Assembly: GCA_030040815.1 (NCBI GenBank)
Contig: JASHSZ010000724.1
Coordinates: forward strand, 1 to 10,043
Length of the DNA: 10,043 nucleotides
Direction: 5' to 3'
DNA from: Streptosporangiaceae bacterium
Lineage (GTDB): Bacteria > Actinomycetota > Actinomycetes > Streptosporangiales > Streptosporangiaceae
A program made the translations under genes and the position numbers. Below the pieces are notes generated by a model. The model saw only the letters and a program-made list of their open reading frames with translations. It did no database searches and was not told where the DNA came from. This document shows, in pieces, positions 2,132 to 10,009 of the stretch (the first letter of the stretch is position 1; each line of letters begins with the position of its first letter).

Positions 2132-2968
2132 GTGGGCGAACTGTCCGGGCGGACATTCCTCGTCACCGGCGCCAACACTGGCATCGGCCTGGCCACGGCG
2201 ACCGATCTGGCCCGCCGCGGTGGCCGTGTTTACCTGGCCTGCCGGTCCGGCCAGAAGGGCGCGGCCGCGGTCGCCAGAATCGCGGCGGCAACCGGCAGCG
2301 ACGAGGTCCGGTTCCTTCCGCTTGACCTCGCCGACCTGGCGTCGGTCCGGGAGTGCGCACGGGCCTTCCTCGCGCTCGAGGAGCCGTTGCACGTGCTCAT
2401 CAACAACGCGGGTATCGGCGGCACCCCCGGCCGGACCAAGGACGGCTTCGAGCTAGTCTTCGGCGTGAACCACCTCGGTCATTTCGCGCTCACCATGGGA
2501 CTGCTCGACTGCCTCACCGCGAGCCGGGCCAGGATCGTGAACGTCGCCAGCGACGCGCACTACCAGGCCAAGGGCATCGACTTTGACCGGCTGCGACGGC
2601 GAACCCGTGGCATCACCGGGATGCGCGAGTACGCCGTGTCCAAGCTCTGCAACGTGTTGTTCAGCCAGGAGGTCGCCAGCCGCCTGGCCGGAAGTGGCAT
2701 AGTCAGCTACTCGCTGCACCCGGGCGTAGTGGCCTCCGACATCTGGCGCCGGGTGCCAGGTCCGGTGCGGCCGCTGGTCACCCGGCGGATGCTAACCGTG
2801 GAGCAGGGCGCCCGCACGTCGCTGTACTGTGCTACCGCGCCGGAGGCGGCGCTGCGCAGCGGTGCATATTACGCGGACTGCGCTGAGAAGGAGCCAAGCC
2901 CTGTTGCCACGCCGGAGCTCGGCGAGCAACTCTGGCGGCACAGCGAGGCCTGGACGCGCGGACATTGA
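2132..2968 (+). CDS. Short-chain dehydrogenase/reductase, retinol-dehydrogenase-like
   Basis: A cytoplasmic NAD(P)-dependent oxidoreductase of the classical SDR type, 278 residues from the GTG at 2132. The Rossmann glycine motif TGANTGIG is at 12-19, the acidic 'LDLAD' at 64-68, NNAG at 91-94, the catalytic Ser at 140 in 'VNVASDAHY', and Tyr167/Lys171 in 'YAVSK'. The C-terminal half ('SLHPGVVASDIWR', then 'EQGARTSLYCATAPE' and 'SGAYYADC') is typical of the subgroup resembling retinol dehydrogenases 11-14 and WW-domain oxidoreductase. In bacteria these act on varied alcohols, aldehydes or ketones, so the substrate is unknown. Arg38 after the second strand ('YLACRSG') suggests NADP preference. 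The start gives 'xGELSGRTFLVTG', matching where family members begin. A GTG three codons upstream at 2123 is an alternative. The frame stays open far upstream opposite mntH, but that stretch has no SDR likeness. The amidase gene follows closely on the same strand. Confidence 0.9.
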   Translation: MGELSGRTFLVTGANTGIGLATATDLARRGGRVYLACRSGQKGAAAVARIAAATGSDEVRFLPLDLADLASVRECARAFLALEEPLHVLINNAGIGGTPGRTKDGFELVFGVNHLGHFALTMGLLDCLTASRARIVNVASDAHYQAKGIDFDRLRRRTRGITGMREYAVSKLCNVLFSQEVASRLAGSGIVSYSLHPGVVASDIWRRVPGPVRPLVTRRMLTVEQGARTSLYCATAPEAALRSGAYYADCAEKEPSPVATPELGEQLWRHSEAWTRGH

Positions 2969-3000
2969 TCTTTCGCAGAGCGGCGGCGGCCCAAGGTGGC

Positions 3001-3837
3001 GTGACCGCGGAGCGCAAACGGCGGCTGCGGGCCGCCCTCGTCGCCGGGTCTGTCCTGGTGGCCGGGCTGGCCTGCGGTTGCGCCGCAACTGGCCGGCCGG
3101 CCGCGGCGCACCCATCCACCCCGGCGTCGTCCGCTGCCCCGAGCAGCCCGCCGAGCCCCAGCCCGTCGGCGCTGCCACTGGCAGGCCGCGTCGTCGGCAT
3201 CGACCCAGGGCACAACGGGGAGAACTTCTCCGACCCCAGCTTCATCAACCAGCAGGTCTGGAACGGCCGAGAGTACGAGGACTGCGACACTACCGGCACC
3301 CAGGCCGCGGACGGCTTCACCGAGGCCAGCTTCAACTTCGACGTCGCCACAGATCTGCGGGCGGACCTGATCGCGGTCGGCGCGACCGTCGTGATGACGC
3401 GCGACAGCAACGACGGCGTCGGGCCGTGCGTGACCACCAGGGCGCAGATTATCAACGACGCGCATGCCGACGTCGCACTCGACATTCATGCCGACGGCGG
3501 ACCGGTCACCGGGCGCGGGTTCACCGTGCTTGAGCCAGTCGCCGACGGCCCCAACGACGCCGTGATCGCCTCGTCGCAGCAGTTCGGCGCCGATGTGCGG
3601 GCGGCGATCCTGCAGTACACGCCCATGCCGGAGAGCGACTACTACGGAACGGACGGGGTCATCAGCCGAGACGACCTGGCCGGGCTGAACCTGACGACGG
3701 TGCCCAAGGTGCTGGTCGAGTGCGGCAACATGACCAACCCGACGGACGCGAGCCTGCTGCAGACCCCGTCCTTCCAGCAGCAGCTCGCCCGTGCATTCAC
3801 CGCCGCGGTCATCGTGTTCCTCACCGGCCAGGGTTAG
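3001..3837 (+). CDS. Exported N-acetylmuramoyl-L-alanine amidase (Amidase_3, Rv3717/Ami1-like)
   Basis: A zinc hydrolase that cleaves the bond between N-acetylmuramic acid and the first L-Ala of the peptide stem in peptidoglycan, acting outside the membrane. Residues 1-30 form an export signal: basic RKRR, a hydrophobic stretch, then 'GLACGC' (22-27). The cleavage region resembles a lipobox imperfectly, so a lipoprotein is possible but unsure. A Pro/Ser-rich linker (about 38-60) leads to the Amidase_3 domain. Zinc ligands are His71 ('IDPGHNG'), Glu108 ('GFTEASF') and His163 ('DIHADGG'); the catalytic Glu is 240 ('VLVECGN'). The order and spacing, including 'GPC', 'GRGF', 'DLAGLN' and 'GNMTNP', match mycobacterial Rv3717, which likewise lacks a separate wall-binding domain. 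Cys95 and Cys143 may form a disulfide. The GTG start puts the signal at the N-terminus and has AAGGTGG just upstream. A TTG at 2965, overlapping the dehydrogenase stop, would add 12 residues. It is likely co-transcribed with the dehydrogenase. Confidence 0.9.
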   Translation: MTAERKRRLRAALVAGSVLVAGLACGCAATGRPAAAHPSTPASSAAPSSPPSPSPSALPLAGRVVGIDPGHNGENFSDPSFINQQVWNGREYEDCDTTGTQAADGFTEASFNFDVATDLRADLIAVGATVVMTRDSNDGVGPCVTTRAQIINDAHADVALDIHADGGPVTGRGFTVLEPVADGPNDAVIASSQQFGADVRAAILQYTPMPESDYYGTDGVISRDDLAGLNLTTVPKVLVECGNMTNPTDASLLQTPSFQQQLARAFTAAVIVFLTGQG

Positions 3838-3922: not shown

Positions 3923-4783
3923 TCAGAGCTGCCGCTGCAGAGCCGGGATGGGTGCCGCCGTGCAAACGCTTGAGGGCGCGTTGCCGGTGATCTTGCAGAT
4001 GGCGGCGGTGAAGAGGTTCGCCGAGCCGATGGCGCCCTGCGCCACCGCAGAGGACGGGCTGTGCAGATCGGTCGCGATCTGGCTCCAGGACAGGCCCTGC
4101 AGCACCTGCGGGTTGTAGGTCGTCTCAGCGATATACCTGTTGCCGATGTCGATGAACGGGAAGGTGTCGCCGGGCGGATCGTACTTCGCCCAGAGCGCTT
4201 GCTGCGCTGACGTCGGCGCCACCAGCACGTTGTGGTTGACGTCCTCGGTCTCAACCGGGGTGAAGACGAGGTAGTGGCTCGTATAGGTGGAGCCGTAGAA
4301 GGTCAGCGTCGCGGTGTTCGGGTACACGTCCGTCGACGACGAGTGCACCCCCTTCAGGGGCGTGAACTGGCCGAACCGGCTCAGCGCGGTCGCCATCGCC
4401 CACCGCTCCGCCGCGCAGTACGGGCACCACTCCGCCCCGATGTACAGCATCTCGGGTTTCCCGCTGGAGGTCAGCGCCGAGCCGGGCACGGACTTCAGGT
4501 ATGAAGCGCTCGAACTGCCGATGCCGACCGCGGCGAACGTGCTGGCCGGAACCGTCAGCTTTGCCTGCACGCCAGCCGGCAGGGGCTGCGCCGCGGGAGC
4601 CGAGCCTGAGGAGCTGTGGCTGACCAGCGCGCCGATGATGATGCCGATGACGGCCAGCAGGGCCACCCCGACGCCGCCGATGGCGAGAATGCGGCGGCGC
4701 TGCTCCTTGCGCCGTGCCTGCGCCTGCTGGGCCGCGATCCGCGCCCGGCTGGACCGCGGGTTGGGGCGCTCCGGGTTGCTCAT
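3923..4783 (-). CDS. DUF929 family membrane-anchored thioredoxin-like protein, paralogue B
   Basis: A 286-aa predicted thiol-disulfide protein with one N-terminal membrane segment. The cytoplasmic start is strongly basic ('ARRKEQRRR', 23-31), followed by a transmembrane helix (about 33-54) and a Ser/Ala/Pro-rich linker. The DUF929 domain has a thioredoxin-type active site CPYC at 120-123 ('[15 protein letters not shown]'). A proline at 209 in 'TFPFIDIGN' sits where thioredoxins carry their cis-Pro, next to the active site. A second Cys pair, 263 and 274, lies near the C-terminus. The positive-inside rule puts the CPYC domain outside the cytoplasm. The family is described mainly as unknown function; a disulfide oxidoreductase role is my inference from CPYC and the VKOR neighbour. 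The ATG at 4783 starts '[10 protein letters not shown]', which aligns with the start of paralogue A. An upstream ATG at 4897 is in frame but adds residues without family likeness. The Shine-Dalgarno is weak (AAAGG, about 12 bases upstream). Confidence 0.85.
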
Positions 4784-4871
4784 GATCGGGATCGACCTTT
4801 GCCTGGGCGGGCTCACGTCGGCGTAAAAAGTAACACCTTGTAACGACCAGGCTACAGAAAGCACTCGCCAG
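4784..4871 (-). promoter_or_regulatory. Possible promoter/operator of DUF929 paralogue B
   Basis: The upstream part of this gap is locally A+T-rich in an otherwise G+C-rich window. On the minus strand it reads GTTACAAGGTGTTACTTTTT just before the gene. The two GTTAC words are in direct repeat, 10 bases apart or one helical turn, which is suggestive of a regulator or RNA polymerase site. I cannot define a -35/-10 pair with confidence. Confidence 0.3.
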
Positions 4872-4880
4872 CATGAGTCC

Positions 4881-4907
4881 GGCCCCTGCCGCATCACGGC
4901 AGCGGCC
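4881..4907 (-). terminator. Hairpin after DUF929 paralogue A
   Basis: GGCC-C-CTGCCG (4881-4891) pairs with CGGCAG-C-GGCC (4897-4907) around a CATCA loop. This makes a 10-bp stem with a single C/C mismatch. It lies about 65 bases after the stop of paralogue A on the minus strand and before paralogue B, so it may end or attenuate the VKOR/paralogue A transcript. There is no T-run. Confidence 0.45.
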
Positions 4908-4971
4908 CGGCCTTATTACGCCCCGCCGACCGCCGATATCGAGGTCCGCCAACCCAGCAGGGCTACCAAGG

Positions 4972-5922
4972 TCAGACGCTCTTTTCCAGCTTCTTGATCG
5001 ACGACGAGGTGCACACGCCCGCTGGTCCCTTGTTGCCCGTCATGTGGCAGATCGCGGCGGTGAAGTAATTGGCCGCGCCGTCGGCAGCCTGGGCGACCGC
5101 GCTGGAGGGATCGTGCAGATCGCTGGCCACCTGGGCCCAGGTCAGGCCCTTAAAGATGGCCGGGTCGTAGATCGGGTACTTGAGGAGGGCCTTATTGCCG
5201 AAGTCGATGAACGGGTAGCCCTGCGACGTGACGCCGTCGACCGTGCTGGTGTCGTACTTCTCCCAGAGCGCCTGCTCGGTGGACGTAGTGGACTGGAGCT
5301 GGCCGTGGTTGATGTCCTCGTTCTCGACCGGGGCGAACGTGAGGTACTTGCTCGAATAGCCAGCCTTGTAGAAGGTCAGGGTCGGCGTGCTCGGGTCAGC
5401 GTCAGTCGACGATGAGTGGATTCCCCGGAGCGGCGTGGTGAAGTGGCCGAACCGGCTCAGCGCTACCGCCATCGCCCAGCGCGTAGCGGCACAGTACGGA
5501 CAGAACTCCGCGCCGATGTAGAGCATCTCCGGCTTCCCGCCGCTGGTGAGCAGCGAGTCGTTGATCTTGAGGATCGGCGGCGAGCCGGTGTAGCCGTTCC
5601 AGCCAGTTGCCGTGTTGGGGGCCTGGTAGCTGAGGACAGAGCCAGCGCCGATCTGGTTGAGCGTCGCGGCCGGCACGTCGGTGATCTCATCCGCGGTGCT
5701 GGCGGGCAGGACAGTGCCGTGGGCGCCCGCAGAGGCGGTGCTCGTCGACGGAGATCGCAGGTCATAGCCCACGATGATGCCGACCACGATGGCGATGACC
5801 GCCAGGACGGTGCCGCCGAAGAGCAGGACGCGGCGGCGCTGTTCCTTGCGCCGCGCGGCGGCCTGCTGCGCCGCAATCCGCTGTCGGACGCTCTTCTCGC
5901 GAAGCCTCGCGGCCTTGCTCAT
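4972..5922 (-). CDS. DUF929 family membrane-anchored thioredoxin-like protein, paralogue A
   Basis: A 316-aa protein with the same plan as paralogue B: a basic cytoplasmic start ('[17 protein letters not shown]', 15-31), one transmembrane helix (about 33-53), a Ser/Thr/Ala linker, then the DUF929 domain outside the membrane. The active site CPYC is at 141-144 ('YIGAEFCPYCAATRWAM'). The cis-Pro candidate is Pro237 ('GYPFIDFGN'), and a C-terminal Cys pair is at 292 and 304. It aligns with paralogue B over nearly its whole length. It also has about 20-25 extra residues before the active site ('NTATGWNGYTGSPPIL', about 103-118) and a small insertion near 224-235. The ATG at 5922 has a good Shine-Dalgarno, AGGAG with 6 bases spacing. 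The gene starts 46 bases after the VKOR stop on the same strand, so co-transcription is very likely. I infer that it exchanges disulfides with exported proteins and is reoxidised by VKOR; there is no direct proof. Confidence 0.88.
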   Translation of the reverse strand: MSKAARLREKSVRQRIAAQQAAARRKEQRRRVLLFGGTVLAVIAIVVGIIVGYDLRSPSTSTASAGAHGTVLPASTADEITDVPAATLNQIGAGSVLSYQAPNTATGWNGYTGSPPILKINDSLLTSGGKPEMLYIGAEFCPYCAATRWAMAVALSRFGHFTTPLRGIHSSSTDADPSTPTLTFYKAGYSSKYLTFAPVENEDINHGQLQSTTSTEQALWEKYDTSTVDGVTSQGYPFIDFGNKALLKYPIYDPAIFKGLTWAQVASDLHDPSSAVAQAADGAANYFTAAICHMTGNKGPAGVCTSSSIKKLEKSV

Positions 5923-5968
5923 CGGTGACTCCTGGGCAACTACGGGTGCGTGTGGGGCTTGGCTGCTA

Positions 5969-6709
5969 TCAGACTGCTCTGCCGGTTGTACTGTCGGCAG
6001 CCGCCTTCGCCGGACTGCCCCAGAAAGTCGCCTGCGCGACGAGAATCACGAACAGAACGAATGTGGTGATGTGCACGTAAGTACACCAAAGGCAAATAGT
6101 CCTGAGCGTGATCAGTTCAGTATAAATCAGGTACAAGATGAACAACACACCAAGGATCACCGCAGCCAGCCGGAGCCGCCAGGCAGCCACCGGCAGCGCG
6201 CGCCGCCGGGCGCTTGCCCGCGGGCCGCGGACCGGCAGCCATCGCCATTCTGGCCGCCACACCCAGGGCAGGTTCATGACGACCATGAAGAGGTAGAAGG
6301 CCAGCCCGAGTTCCGCCACCGGGAAGATCCCGAAGAGCTCAGACTCGGCGCTCGTCGTGACCGCCGCACAGTCGACCAGGCCATGGTTGCTGCAGAGCAG
6401 GATGCCGGCTCCGGCCAGGTGGGCGATCGTCAGATAGATGCTCAGCCCGAGGCCGAGGACCGAGAGCCCGAGTGTGGTCCAGCGCAGCCACGGCGGTGTC
6501 CACGCCGTGCTAGCCGGAGCGGCAGCCGCTGGCCGAGCGGTCGCAGGCTTGCCCTTCGCCGGCGGCCTGGATGCGGTCTGCTGGGGCCGTGACCGGGACC
6601 CGCCGCCGGAGTTGCGTGCGGAGCTTGCTGTGGCCTGGCCCCGGCCGCGCGACTGTGAGCCCTTGCGCGCAGTCTGCGTTGCGCTCGGACGGCGGTTCTG
6701 GTTCGCCAC
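5969..6709 (-). CDS. VKOR-family membrane disulfide oxidoreductase
   Basis: A quinone-linked membrane enzyme that, in bacteria lacking DsbB, reoxidises DsbA-like proteins and so drives disulfide formation in exported proteins. The 246-aa protein begins with about 65 residues of basic, low-complexity tail rich in Arg, Ser, Ala, Gly and Pro. The VKOR core follows: a first helix (about 76-98), then the loop pair Cys106/Cys114 ('CSNHGLVDC'). Next are Ser120/Ser123 in 'TTSAESELFG' and a helix 'FPVAELGLAFYLFMVVMN' (129-146). Two more helices carry the quinone-side active pair Cys206/Cys209 in 'TICLWCTYVHI'. All four cysteines of the catalytic relay are present. No thioredoxin domain is fused, unlike many bacterial VKORs, so a separate partner is expected; the two downstream CPYC proteins are the obvious candidates. 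The GTG start at 6709 has only a weak upstream GGA. It is the first gene of the minus-strand cluster. Confidence 0.93.
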   Translation of the reverse strand: MANQNRRPSATQTARKGSQSRGRGQATASSARNSGGGSRSRPQQTASRPPAKGKPATARPAAAAPASTAWTPPWLRWTTLGLSVLGLGLSIYLTIAHLAGAGILLCSNHGLVDCAAVTTSAESELFGIFPVAELGLAFYLFMVVMNLPWVWRPEWRWLPVRGPRASARRRALPVAAWRLRLAAVILGVLFILYLIYTELITLRTICLWCTYVHITTFVLFVILVAQATFWGSPAKAAADSTTGRAV

Positions 6710-7019: not shown

Positions 7020-8027
7020 ATGTTGGCTCTCAGATACCGGCGCGGCGCCCAGGCCGCCGCGTTCCTCGCTATCGCAAGCGTCGGGCTCGCCGTCGCGGGG
7101 TGCGGGAGCTCCTCGCCCAGCACCTCCGCGCCCAAGGTGACCGGCACCGCGAACGTCGCGTACGCGTCGTCCCTCCAGTACCTGAACACGAAGGTAGTCG
7201 GCCCGGCCTTCACCAAGACCACCGGGTACAAGTACCTGGGCACAGGCGGCGCATCCGGCACCTTGTCATCAGAGATCGCAGCCAGCGAGCTACCGGACAC
7301 GAACGTGTTCGAGAGCGTGGGCAGCGACAACATCACCCCGCTAGAGCCCACGTTCACGCACTGGTACGTCCAGTACGCGGGCAATAAGATGGTTATCGCC
7401 TACAACCCCAAGAGCAAGTACGCCTCGCAGTTCGAAGCGATCGCCAGCGGCAAGGAGCCGATGAAGGATCTCTTCACCCTCCTGCAGACTCCCGGCCTCA
7501 AGCTCGGCCGGACCGACCCCAACATCGACCCGCAGGGCCGGTACTTCATCGAGATGCTCGAACTAGCTCAGATGTACTACAACCTGCCGGCCGATACCGT
7601 GACAAACATCATCGGCAGCCCGCTCAACTCGTCGAGCTCCTCGCAGATCTACGCCGAGTCCTCGCTCGACTCGATCCTGCAAGCCGGCGAACTCGACGCG
7701 GCCAGCGCCTACTACACCCAAGCGATCGAGCTGCACCTGCACTACATCGCGCTGCCGGCCATGATCAATCTTGGTACCTCCGCGGACGCCGCGTACTACT
7801 CGAAGGCGACTATCACCACCACTAACGGCAAGGTCCACTCGGGCGAGTTTCTGGTGCTCGACATCACGATCATCGGTAAGGCCACTCCGGCTGCGGTCGC
7901 GTTCGTCAAGTACACGCTGTCGAGTACCGGCATCGGTCAGTACAAGCAGGGCGGGTTCACACTGCTGAAGCCGACGGGGTACGGCACCGGGATCCCGGCC
8001 GCGATACGAAGTGAGCTGGGTAGCTAG
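7020..8027 (+). CDS. wtpA: WtpA/ModA-like oxyanion-binding lipoprotein of an ABC importer
   Basis: The extracellular solute-binding component of the importer encoded with the next two genes; probable ligand tungstate or molybdate. Residues 1-28 are a lipoprotein signal: basic start, hydrophobic core, lipobox 'VAGC' with Cys28 as the lipidated residue. The mature protein (335 aa in all) follows the WtpA type of binding protein. Strand 'NVAYASSL' (45-52) matches the family's 'HAGSL' anion-binding start. 'WYVQYAGNKMVIAYNPKSKY' (115-134) and 'LGRTDPNIDPQGRYFIEML' (162-180) are strong family blocks, and 'GELDAASAYYTQAIELHL' (223-240) is the C-lobe block. Asp170 is a candidate for the Asp that coordinates the metal in archaeal WtpA. 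I could not place the partner Glu with confidence, so sulfate or another oxyanion is not excluded. The permease gene overlaps its 3' end by 17 bases. Confidence 0.82.
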   Translation: MLALRYRRGAQAAAFLAIASVGLAVAGCGSSSPSTSAPKVTGTANVAYASSLQYLNTKVVGPAFTKTTGYKYLGTGGASGTLSSEIAASELPDTNVFESVGSDNITPLEPTFTHWYVQYAGNKMVIAYNPKSKYASQFEAIASGKEPMKDLFTLLQTPGLKLGRTDPNIDPQGRYFIEMLELAQMYYNLPADTVTNIIGSPLNSSSSSQIYAESSLDSILQAGELDAASAYYTQAIELHLHYIALPAMINLGTSADAAYYSKATITTTNGKVHSGEFLVLDITIIGKATPAAVAFVKYTLSSTGIGQYKQGGFTLLKPTGYGTGIPAAIRSELGS

Positions 8028-8907
8028 CCCGGCGGCAGCAGCTGGCGGAGCTGTCCGGGGCGAGGGACCTCCCGGACAGCCTGGTCGGCGCGGACGGCCT
8101 GCTCGCACGGGCGCGCGGGCCGTCCGCTCTGTCTCGGGGGCAGTGTCCGTCGCCGGGGCGCTGGTGGTCTGGGTCCTGCTCCTTGGCCCGGTCATCACGC
8201 TGCTCACCCACATCTCCGGCAGCGCGGTCGCCAGCTCGCTCAGCGCGGCGGGCGCGCTGCAGCCGCTCGTGACGTCGCTCGAGTCGGGGGCCGTGACACT
8301 GGCCGTGCTCTTCCTGATCTGCACCCCGCTGGCCTGGATGCTGGCCCGCGGCACGCTGCCGTTCCCGCGGGTCTGGGAGGCGGGCATTCTCTGCAGCCTG
8401 CTACTGCCGCCGCTGGTGATCGGGCTGCTGCTGGTCTTCATGGTCGGCCCTTACACGCCATTCGGCGAGCTGATCGGACACCTGAACCTGTCTGCGGTCA
8501 ATACCTTCCTCGCCCTGGTGATCGCAGAGGTGTATGAGTCGGCGCCGTACTACGTCCTCGGCGCGCAGGCGGCTTTCGCATCGGTCGATCCGCGGCTGGA
8601 GCAACAGGCGGCCCTGCTGGGCGACCGGCCGCGGCGGGTGTTCAGGCGGGTCACGATGCCGCTGGCAGCGCCGGGCCTCGCGATGGCACTGGCCGTGGCC
8701 TGGGCCAGGGCAATGGGGGCGTTCGGCGCGGTCGTCGTCATCGCCTACCATCCGTATGGTCTGCCGCTGCAGATCTGGACTACCCTGCAGGCGACCGGGC
8801 TGCCGTCCGCACTGCCGTTCGCGCTAGTACTGCTCGTGGTGGCGCTGCCGTTGCCGCTAGCCGCCTATATCTGGAGCGCGCGTGCTCAAAGCCGACGTCG
8901 AGGTTGA
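8011..8907 (+). CDS. Oxyanion ABC transporter permease (ModB/WtpB-like)
   Basis: The integral membrane subunit that forms the translocation path of the importer. The 298-aa protein has about 45 polar, Gly/Arg/Pro-rich N-terminal residues, then hydrophobic segments near 46-68, 88-112, 122-146, 164-188, 222-245 and 266-288, as expected for the six-helix MetI-type permease fold. The cytoplasmic EAA coupling loop that docks on the ATPase is at about 199-223 ('QAALLGDRPRRVFRRVTMPL' and the following 'AAPG'). The GTG at 8011 overlaps the binding-protein gene by 17 bases and has no clear ribosome binding site, so translation may depend on coupling. A GTG at 8143 (codon 45), just before the first helix, is an alternative start. 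The end overlaps the ATPase gene by 26 bases. Specificity (molybdate, tungstate or sulfate) is taken from the binding protein and is not readable here. Confidence 0.88.
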   Translation: MSWVASPAAAAGGAVRGEGPPGQPGRRGRPARTGARAVRSVSGAVSVAGALVVWVLLLGPVITLLTHISGSAVASSLSAAGALQPLVTSLESGAVTLAVLFLICTPLAWMLARGTLPFPRVWEAGILCSLLLPPLVIGLLLVFMVGPYTPFGELIGHLNLSAVNTFLALVIAEVYESAPYYVLGAQAAFASVDPRLEQQAALLGDRPRRVFRRVTMPLAAPGLAMALAVAWARAMGAFGAVVVIAYHPYGLPLQIWTTLQATGLPSALPFALVLLVVALPLPLAAYIWSARAQSRRRG

Positions 8908-10009
8908 CCGACGTGACTTCACCGTGCGGGCCGCGCTCGAGGTCGCGCCGGGGGAGCGGCTTGCCCTGTTTGGCCCATCGGGCGCAGGCAAGACGACGCT
9001 ACTCGAAGCCGTCGCCGGGCTGGTTGCGCCGCGGTCTGCCAGCATCGAGCTGGCCGGTCGGATCCTCACCCGGACTAGCAAGCCGCCGGTAGCTGTGCCG
9101 GCCTGGCAACGCCGGGTTGGTCTGCTGCGCCAGGACCCTGGGCTGTTCCCGCACATGTCGGTCCGGGCGAACCTGGCTTACGCCCGAGGTTCCCACGCTG
9201 GCGCGAGGGGTCGCGGGGGCCCTGGCGGCCAGGGAAGTCCCGGTCGCGAGCTGGCCGAACTGGCGGATGCGCTCGGCATCGGCAATCTGCTCGGGGCCAT
9301 GCCGGCCCGGCTCTCGGGCGGCCAGCAGCACCGGGCCGCGCTAGCCAGGCTGCTGCTCGCGCACTGCGACGCGCTGCTGCTCGACGAGCCGTACTCCGGC
9401 CTTGACGGCGCACTGCGCCGCACGCTCACGGCACTGGTTGTACGGCTGGTGACCGAGCGCGGCGTGCCTGCCATCCTGGTGGCACACGAGCTCGCCGACG
9501 CGCAGGCTTTCGCCACCCGGATGGCCGTGCTCGACCACGGCCAGCTGCTGCAGGTCGGTCCGCCCGACTACGTCGTGCTGAGGCCCGCTAGCGTCCGGGC
9601 TGCCGAGCTGGTCGGCTATCTCGGGTTCGCAGCTCTAGCGGACCGGCCCGACGTCGTCGCAGGCGTGCACCCCGACCGCGTGGTGGCGGGCCGCTCGCCG
9701 GACCGCGGCGTGGTGCTCGACGGAACGATCGCGGCGAGCCGGCCTGCCGGGGCGGGCTGGGAGGTCGATCTGCTGGTGCCGGGTGCTCGCGAGGCCGGCT
9801 CCGTGGTCACGTGCCGACTGCCCCACCCGCCGGGCGCGGACGGCAGCCAGCTGGCCGTCACTGCGCTGAGTCCGCCGCTGTTCGGTACGGACGGGACGTC
9901 GCTGACCGCCCCGGATGCCGCTTCAGGGCTGCTGGCAACCCCGGCGGCGGACTGCGCCGCCGGGACGTATGGCAGCCAGCAACTAGCCGTGGAGGGAAAC
10001 GGGCGGTGA
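8882..10009 (+). CDS. Oxyanion ABC transporter ATP-binding protein (ModC/WtpC-like)
   Basis: The cytoplasmic ATPase that powers the importer. In the 375-aa product, Walker A is 'GPSGAGKTT' (31-39), the Q-loop Gln is 84 ('RQDPGLFP'), the signature is 'LSGGQ' (144-148), and Walker B is 'ALLLDEP' (164-170) with Glu169. The D-loop 'SGLD' is at 172-175 and the switch His is 202 ('VAHEL'). Everything needed for ATP hydrolysis is present. After about residue 235 there is a C-terminal domain of the TOBE/MOP kind found in ModC and CysA-type proteins, where it can bind ligand or regulate transport; 'VVAGVHPDRVVAG' (258-270) and 'GWEVDLLVPG' (292-301) resemble its strands. Between the Q-loop and the signature there is a Gly/Arg-rich insertion (about 103-121). 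The GTG start at 8882 has GGAG five bases upstream and lies inside the permease gene, so translation is probably coupled. Confidence 0.9.
   Translation: MLKADVEVDRRDFTVRAALEVAPGERLALFGPSGAGKTTLLEAVAGLVAPRSASIELAGRILTRTSKPPVAVPAWQRRVGLLRQDPGLFPHMSVRANLAYARGSHAGARGRGGPGGQGSPGRELAELADALGIGNLLGAMPARLSGGQQHRAALARLLLAHCDALLLDEPYSGLDGALRRTLTALVVRLVTERGVPAILVAHELADAQAFATRMAVLDHGQLLQVGPPDYVVLRPASVRAAELVGYLGFAALADRPDVVAGVHPDRVVAGRSPDRGVVLDGTIAASRPAGAGWEVDLLVPGAREAGSVVTCRLPHPPGADGSQLAVTALSPPLFGTDGTSLTAPDAASGLLATPAADCAAGTYGSQQLAVEGNGR

Follow-up and report, generated by a model that had tools for sequence, protein, structure and literature searches.

Gene linkage of VKOR and DUF929 points to a probable disulfide-forming module in bacteria and archaea

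VKOR and two DUF929 proteins encoded in one run of genes

The stretch analysed here (the window) comprises 10,043 nucleotides of contig JASHSZ010000724.1 from a Streptosporangiaceae bacterium; among named relatives, the closest are metagenome assemblies of Streptosporangiaceae. Its minus strand carries a run of three genes, encoding VKOR followed by two proteins of the DUF929 family, DUF929-a and DUF929-b, all three identified by Pfam matches (Table 1). VKOR and DUF929-a are 46 bp apart, DUF929-a and DUF929-b 188 bp. The initial annotation of this stretch proposed that the DUF929 proteins are the partners of VKOR in disulfide formation, and this proposal is the subject of the present work.

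VKOR consists of 246 amino acids and scores 94.5 bits against PF07884 (curated cut-off, 27.5). It contains exactly four cysteines, at positions 106, 114, 206, and 209, which form a CXnC motif between transmembrane segments TM1 and TM2 and a CXXC motif opening TM4; this is the pattern of the family and follows the motif placement described in the consulted portion of PMC11208910. The loop carrying Cys106 and Cys114 is devoid of Lys and Arg and the loops on the opposite side are basic, so that the positive-inside rule places this pair outside. Judging from the sequence and topology of the 246-amino-acid protein, no thioredoxin domain follows TM4. Sequence and topology thus agree with the earlier description of a VKOR with four relay cysteines and without a fused thioredoxin domain.

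DUF929-a (316 amino acids) and DUF929-b (286 amino acids from the ATG at 4783) share 50% identity and score 91.0 and 101.8 bits, respectively, against PF06053 (curated cut-off, 24.6). The GTG listed as the start of DUF929-b at 4897 probably makes the protein too long, and the ATG is preferred because the resulting N terminus is conserved among relatives. Both proteins are predicted to possess a basic N terminus, a single transmembrane segment, and an outward-facing domain, which puts their CPYC motifs on the same side of the membrane as Cys106 and Cys114 of VKOR. The family is large, 4788 of the 7999 scored candidates matching at E 0.001, and PF06053 was matched by 67/67 members of alignment A2 (E 0.1 or better). 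Among 98 sequences from the loci described below and the window (100 matches minus L055, cut by a contig end, and L041, weak at E 2e-5), the active-site motif is CPYC in 76 and CPFC in 22. The equivalent of Pro237 is proline in 98/98, and the alignment columns of Cys292 and Cys304 both keep their cysteine in 98/98; this second pair is absent from the initial annotation. Profile, topology, and the invariant proline bear out the earlier picture of two membrane-anchored CPYC proteins with an outward domain and a conserved proline.

An AlphaFold2 model of DUF929-a reached a mean predicted local distance difference test score of 90.8 over the whole protein and 95.3 over the outer part, with a predicted template modelling score of 0.93 for the outer part. 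In the outer-part model, a strand (65-73) precedes CPYC (76-79), which lies at helix 77-91, and Pro172 is located between strands 166-169 and 173-176. This predicted order of a strand, CXXC at a helix start, and proline before a later strand is the thioredoxin-fold layout, and thioredoxin-fold proteins top both structural re-alignments, a tentative structural match. Foldseek placed GST and other chains at the head of its list, and these were discarded because their template modelling scores are too low to be meaningful. A sequence search of solved structures gave nothing useful (all matches at E 0.036 or worse).

The model contains no DsbA-type helical-bundle insertion, seven strands and one helix being predicted between the CXXC helix and Pro172. 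Neither DUF929-a nor DUF929-b matches DSBA (PF01323) or Thioredoxin_4 (PF13462) at E 0.01, and neither profile is among the 25 of 28 families shown for 67 DUF929 members at E 0.1; among these members, one each weakly matches Thioredoxin_2 and Thioredoxin_7. A comparison of the DUF929 and DsbA profiles reached only 15.5% over 17 columns, so DUF929 is not claimed to be a DsbA. A cysteine spacing considered common to DUF929 and Rv2969c was dropped; the published Rv2969c pair is Cys140-Cys192 in the part of the source consulted. DUF929 (PF06053), to which the window proteins belong by profile, is classed as thioredoxin-like in PMC3091736, the consulted part of which assigns it neither a function nor a link to VKOR. 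Some public annotations already call DUF929 proteins 'thiol-disulfide isomerase/thioredoxin'.

Table 1. Positions of the VKOR and DUF929 genes and of their sequence features in the window
Feature	Position	Strand	Basis
VKOR, single domain, four transmembrane segments	5969-6709	-	PF07884 E 7.9e-27; hydropathy scan
VKOR outer-loop pair Cys106-Cys114 (CXnC, TM1-TM2)	6368-6394	-	Sequence
VKOR membrane CXXC Cys206-Cys209 (CLWC, start of TM4)	6083-6094	-	Sequence
DUF929-a, basic N terminus, one transmembrane segment, outward thioredoxin-fold domain (predicted)	4972-5922	-	PF06053 E 1e-25
DUF929-a active-site CPYC 141-144	5491-5502	-	Sequence; family conservation
DUF929-a Pro237, cis-Pro candidate	5212-5214	-	Family conservation; model
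DUF929-a second pair Cys292 and Cys304	5011-5049	-	Family conservation
DUF929-b, paralogue of DUF929-a	3923-4783	-	PF06053 E 5.3e-29 (profile run on 3923-4780)
DUF929-b active-site CPYC 120-123, Trp before	4415-4426	-	Sequence
DUF929-b second pair Cys263 and Cys274	3962-3997	-	Sequence

Linkage, co-occurrence, and partner type of VKOR

Scanning each species through a single genome yielded 463 confirmed places encoding a DUF929 relative, of which the best 80 were kept as loci. In 61 of these 80, VKOR is the immediate same-strand neighbour of DUF929, the genes overlapping or lying at most 297 bp apart. Counted by domain position (D, DUF929; V, VKOR), the gene orders of the linked loci are DV (45), DVD (8), DDV (3), VD (2), VDD (2), and VDDD (1); that of the window is VDD. 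The order of the genes changes between loci and the strand does not. By assembly label, which may be wrong for metagenomes, linked loci occur in Actinomycetota, Chloroflexota, Dormibacterota, Bacillota, Pseudomonadota, Thaumarchaeota, and Micrarchaeota. The pairing is thus wide and conserved, not local. The 19 unlinked loci stem from 18 genomes (L014 and L003 belong to one), 15 of which encode VKOR and 6 of which have it beside another DUF929 copy; several of these loci stop at a contig edge. Neither relatives in viral contigs nor plasmids carrying near-identical DNA were found. At one archaeal site (G008:C11:9685-10707), VKOR adjoins a DUF929 sequence interrupted by two stop codons, likely a decayed pair.

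Genomes were also drawn regardless of linkage, the phylum of each draw being that of its centre locus. Of 149 genomes drawn for Actinomycetota, 34 have VKOR and 8 have DUF929, and VKOR is present in all 8 of the latter (p 3.6e-6; leaving out the centre genome, p 1.6e-5). In all seven DUF929-positive genomes other than the centre, VKOR adjoins DUF929 on the same strand, which under random placement has a roughly estimated chance of ~1e-22. A ninth case, a cut DUF929 gene beside VKOR at a contig end of G145, was overlooked by the profile search. The Chloroflexota draw (151 genomes including the centre) contained DUF929 in 38, VKOR in 82, and both in 32 (p 1.1e-5). The phylum of the archaeal draw (121 genomes; DUF929 in 7, VKOR in 30) we take to be Thermoproteota in GTDB; without the centre, VKOR is present in five of six DUF929-positive genomes versus 29 of 120 overall (p 0.003). 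We call these genomes Sulfolobales-like because Sulfolobus acidocaldarius is the sole DUF929-positive control genome. Two kinds of DUF929 protein exist in these genomes: one subtype lacks the second cysteine of CXXC, and the CPYC type carries the second cysteine pair. For the CPYC type, a subset chosen after reading the sequences, VKOR is present in 5/5 genomes (p 6e-4), and the sixth genome has neither. DUF929 and VKOR are thus linked in the scanned loci and in the drawn Actinomycetota genomes, in the latter beyond chance, and co-occur significantly in all three draws. In the other Sulfolobales-like subtype (L105-L111), GCPxG replaces CPYC, the second active-site cysteine being absent from the motif.

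Beside the VKORs examined, DUF929 and DsbA never occur together. The neighbour of 114 VKOR reading frames (five loci counted twice) is DUF929 in 75 cases, DsbA in 16, neither in 23, and both in 0. When one VKOR per genome was counted in the Actinomycetota draw (two genomes have more), the 34 VKOR genomes had DUF929 beside VKOR in 8, a Thioredoxin_4-type DsbA in 14, neither in 9, and both in 0, with 3/34 VKORs not recovered by profile. Both couples, VKOR-DsbA and VKOR-DUF929, coexist in two genomes, Kribbella antibiotica (G300) and a Chloroflexota assembly (G294), where they lie at separate places, on different contigs. A VKOR tree is divided by a branch with a Shimodaira-Hasegawa-like approximate likelihood ratio test value of 89; 65 of the 67 DUF929-linked rows lie to one side of it, and every one of the 10 kept DsbA-linked rows lies opposite. 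The DUF929 label changes 9 times on this tree versus a mean of 25.2 after shuffling, and none of 500 shuffles gave so low a number. Quick trees were used; the VKOR tree includes 96 of the 114 rows and keeps one repeat (L146 = L021), the rows left out being four repeats and 14 without the cysteine-spacing pattern in the matched stretch (6 DsbA-linked, 4 DUF929-linked, and 4 others).

Another DsbA-like protein of the same genome might serve VKOR, which the initial annotation had named as contrary evidence. Thioredoxin_4 proteins are present in 10 of 26 DUF929-positive genomes; the other 16 gave no match, an absence that is weak evidence because many assemblies are incomplete and the search covered only the Thioredoxin_4 and PF01323 families. 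Eleven of the 16 have PF01323 matches (19 matches, 18 fetched, 15 readable), and the 15 readable proteins look cytosolic, since a simple hydropathy scan detected no hydrophobic N-terminal segment in them. Two genomes reached via the Dormibacterota loci L080 and L045 have a PF01323 gene (L166 and L167) with TGA at the first cysteine of CPWC; the surrounding codons are identical in both, and both are selenoprotein candidates.

A search restricted to long proteins gave 353 matches, 120 of which were listed. Nine among the matches listed unite VKOR and DUF929 in one protein, each a single member. In eight of these, reading by eye revealed a segment with many Arg, His, and Gly residues that looks translated out of frame and lies at the junction or ahead of it, a likely frameshift artefact, and therefore only P0242 is counted as a fusion. 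In this clean in-frame protein (440 amino acids, one member), VKOR (13-141) is followed by a basic stretch, a hydrophobic segment, and a complete DUF929 with all four DUF929 cysteines; the domain order fits the topology because the C terminus of VKOR and the N terminus of DUF929 both lie inside. Seven among the 120 matches listed join a Ser/Thr kinase to DUF929 (P0251, P0254, P0255, P0256, P0310, P0324, and P0344), and in the five checked by Pfam both domains were present. At the CXXC site, the two kinase-linked sequences that were read carry CYLC (P0251) and CSFC (P0254). In mycobacterial PknE, according to the consulted part of PMC3792642, a DsbA-like domain is placed as DUF929 is in these kinase fusions. 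Found both beside VKOR and on kinases, like DsbA, DUF929 therefore occupies the same two niches.

A proposed disulfide relay

With a probability of about 0.8, we consider VKOR and DUF929 to be a disulfide-forming module in which DUF929 is the thiol oxidant reoxidized by VKOR in place of DsbA. The initial proposal that DUF929 is the VKOR partner is well supported by genome context, namely, linkage, co-inheritance, the absence of DsbA beside the examined VKORs that adjoin DUF929, and one in-frame fusion, and these observations stand together with the genes themselves, their conserved cysteines, their topology, and their predicted fold. From these features we infer a redox exchange, its direction, a quinone acceptor, and exported substrates. 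DUF929 would work outside the cytoplasm as a thiol oxidase whose thioredoxin fold has diverged, with the N-terminal helix anchoring it in the membrane. Cysteine pairs of exported proteins would be oxidized by the CPYC disulfide, which would itself become reduced, and the electrons would pass from DUF929 to Cys106/Cys114 in the outer loop of VKOR, on to Cys206/Cys209 in the membrane, and finally to quinone. By such a relay, DUF929 would serve this VKOR branch as DsbA serves the classical one.

Two groups of genomes weigh against this interpretation. VKOR and DUF929 adjoin in only 19 of the 38 DUF929-positive Chloroflexota genomes, and in none of the six Sulfolobales-like genomes do they lie side by side, one of these having them 3.7 kb apart on opposite strands. 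The Sulfolobales-like genomes thus show co-occurrence without linkage, and the scattering of DUF929 away from VKOR that the initial annotation had named as contrary evidence applies in part to these two groups, not to Actinomycetota. The separation in Sulfolobales-like genomes, together with some genomes that have DUF929 without a VKOR match, would also suit the notion that the neighbours are merely co-regulated secreted redox proteins, DUF929 having another oxidant or working as a reductase. We regard this as improbable, considering that DsbA and DUF929 were never found together in one VKOR slot, that the VKOR tree tracks the partner type, and that one VKOR-DUF929 fusion exists.

The VKOR-DUF929 couple most likely parallels VKOR-DsbA. 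As described in the consulted part of PMC3792642, the mycobacterial couple of DsbA (Rv2969c) and VKOR (Rv2968c) likewise combines VKOR with a neighbouring gene for an anchored or exported thioredoxin-fold protein that has CXXC, a cis-Pro (a candidate in DUF929), and a second cysteine pair, and its partner domain is also fused to a Ser/Thr kinase, PknE. It differs from the couple studied here in that DUF929 has no DsbA profile match, lacks the helical-bundle insertion in the model, and sometimes occurs in two copies. Moreover, VKOR of the window lies off the branch of the sampled DsbA-linked VKORs, a tree in which the mycobacterial VKOR is not knowingly represented. VKOR-thioredoxin fusions are found in cyanobacteria, some other bacteria, and plants (PMC3792642 and PMC4555120, in part), and P0242, which has an extra transmembrane segment of its own, corresponds to them with DUF929 as the partner domain; unlike in those fusions, VKOR and DUF929 are usually separate genes, and the partner domain is from another family. 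E. coli DsbA-DsbB resembles the proposed module in pairing an extracytoplasmic oxidant with a quinone-reducing membrane partner, both components being of other families (see also PMC11208910, in part). In line with the initial annotation, which knew of no account of this pairing, no description coupling DUF929 with VKOR was found in the literature searched, from which subscription journals were mostly absent.

A role as VKOR partner would offer a direct test for a large family to which the literature searched assigns no function. If true, it could explain the oxidation of secreted proteins in bacteria without an exported DsbA match, and one membrane oxidase family would work with a partner of another kind. 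DUF929-capped kinases would then be predicted to respond to extracellular redox conditions, as counterparts of PknE. A more far-reaching combination, which we put forward tentatively and hold to be rather unlikely as a whole, is that VKOR-DUF929 forms a separate, old bacterial and archaeal couple in which CPYC and Cys292/Cys304 are both redox-active in the relay, is tied to the copper sites of terminal oxidases in several phyla, and has lent its domain to Ser/Thr kinases as an outer redox sensor.

DUF929 copies and neighbouring genes

Two DUF929 genes stand beside VKOR in 13 of the 80 loci and three in one, in addition to the window. Streptosporangiaceae and close relatives possess three DUF929 lineages, a, b, and c, found beside VKOR as ab (window and L002), ca, cb, and cab, and a quick tree with many weak forks indicates more duplications elsewhere. 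The residue preceding CPYC is Trp in 7/7 b copies and Phe in 11 or Tyr in 4 of 15 a copies, a difference that could shift redox potential or substrate choice. The initial annotation explained the two copies as an oxidase and an isomerase. The recurrence of paired copies and their difference before CPYC would suit such a division of labour, as would a DsbD/CcdA-type protein as a possible reductive feed: 16 of 19 DUF929-positive genomes have a DsbD_TM match, 15 of them over the cut-off, although such proteins serve other pathways too. Against it, both copies keep CPYC, the proline, and the second cysteine pair, the three lineages mix, and in two draws most DUF929-positive genomes have just one DUF929 match (6 of 7 Actinomycetota genomes without the centre and 27 of 38 Chloroflexota genomes). 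The oxidase-isomerase pair thus appears very unlikely. Since the lineages mix and further duplications exist, we favour repeated specialization over one fixed pair, the copies presumably acting in parallel as oxidases, each on substrates of its own.

The main rival to general disulfide formation is a narrower one, in which the couple is dedicated to the maturation of copper proteins or terminal oxidases; DUF929 would handle copper-site thiols, like TlpA and Sco, and VKOR would keep DUF929 oxidized. A gene for the oxidase assembly factor CtaG (PF09678) lies within 4 kb of DUF929 on the same strand in 13 loci (L024, L025, L027, L029, L034, L036, L045, L047, L050, L059, L062, L072, and L080); a further locus has it on the opposite strand, the CtaG-bearing loci belonging to Actinomycetota, Chloroflexota, and Dormibacterota. 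A cupredoxin gene is near DUF929 in five loci (L036, L045, L059, L062, and L080). TlpA, and in the whole-protein list Sco1, are among the fold matches; they do not rank above plain thioredoxins, so that these matches are unspecific. CtaG was not found in the remaining loci, many of which are short, or in the window. On balance, we consider a dedicated copper role unlikely and retain general disulfide formation by VKOR and DUF929 as the preferred reading.

Genes flanking the run in the window are transcribed from the plus strand. A tungstate/molybdate-type ABC transporter, made up of a binding protein, a permease, and an ATPase, is encoded at 7020-10009, and its transcription leads away from VKOR and DUF929. 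A binding protein of this type is likewise divergent in 13 actinobacterial loci (L002, L005-L007, L009-L014, L016, L019, and L055), and in the archaeal locus L056 one is encoded near DUF929 on the same strand. At 2965-3837, a gene for an Rv3717-like N-acetylmuramoyl-L-alanine amidase adjoins DUF929-b, and the cysteines of this amidase could be a disulfide substrate.

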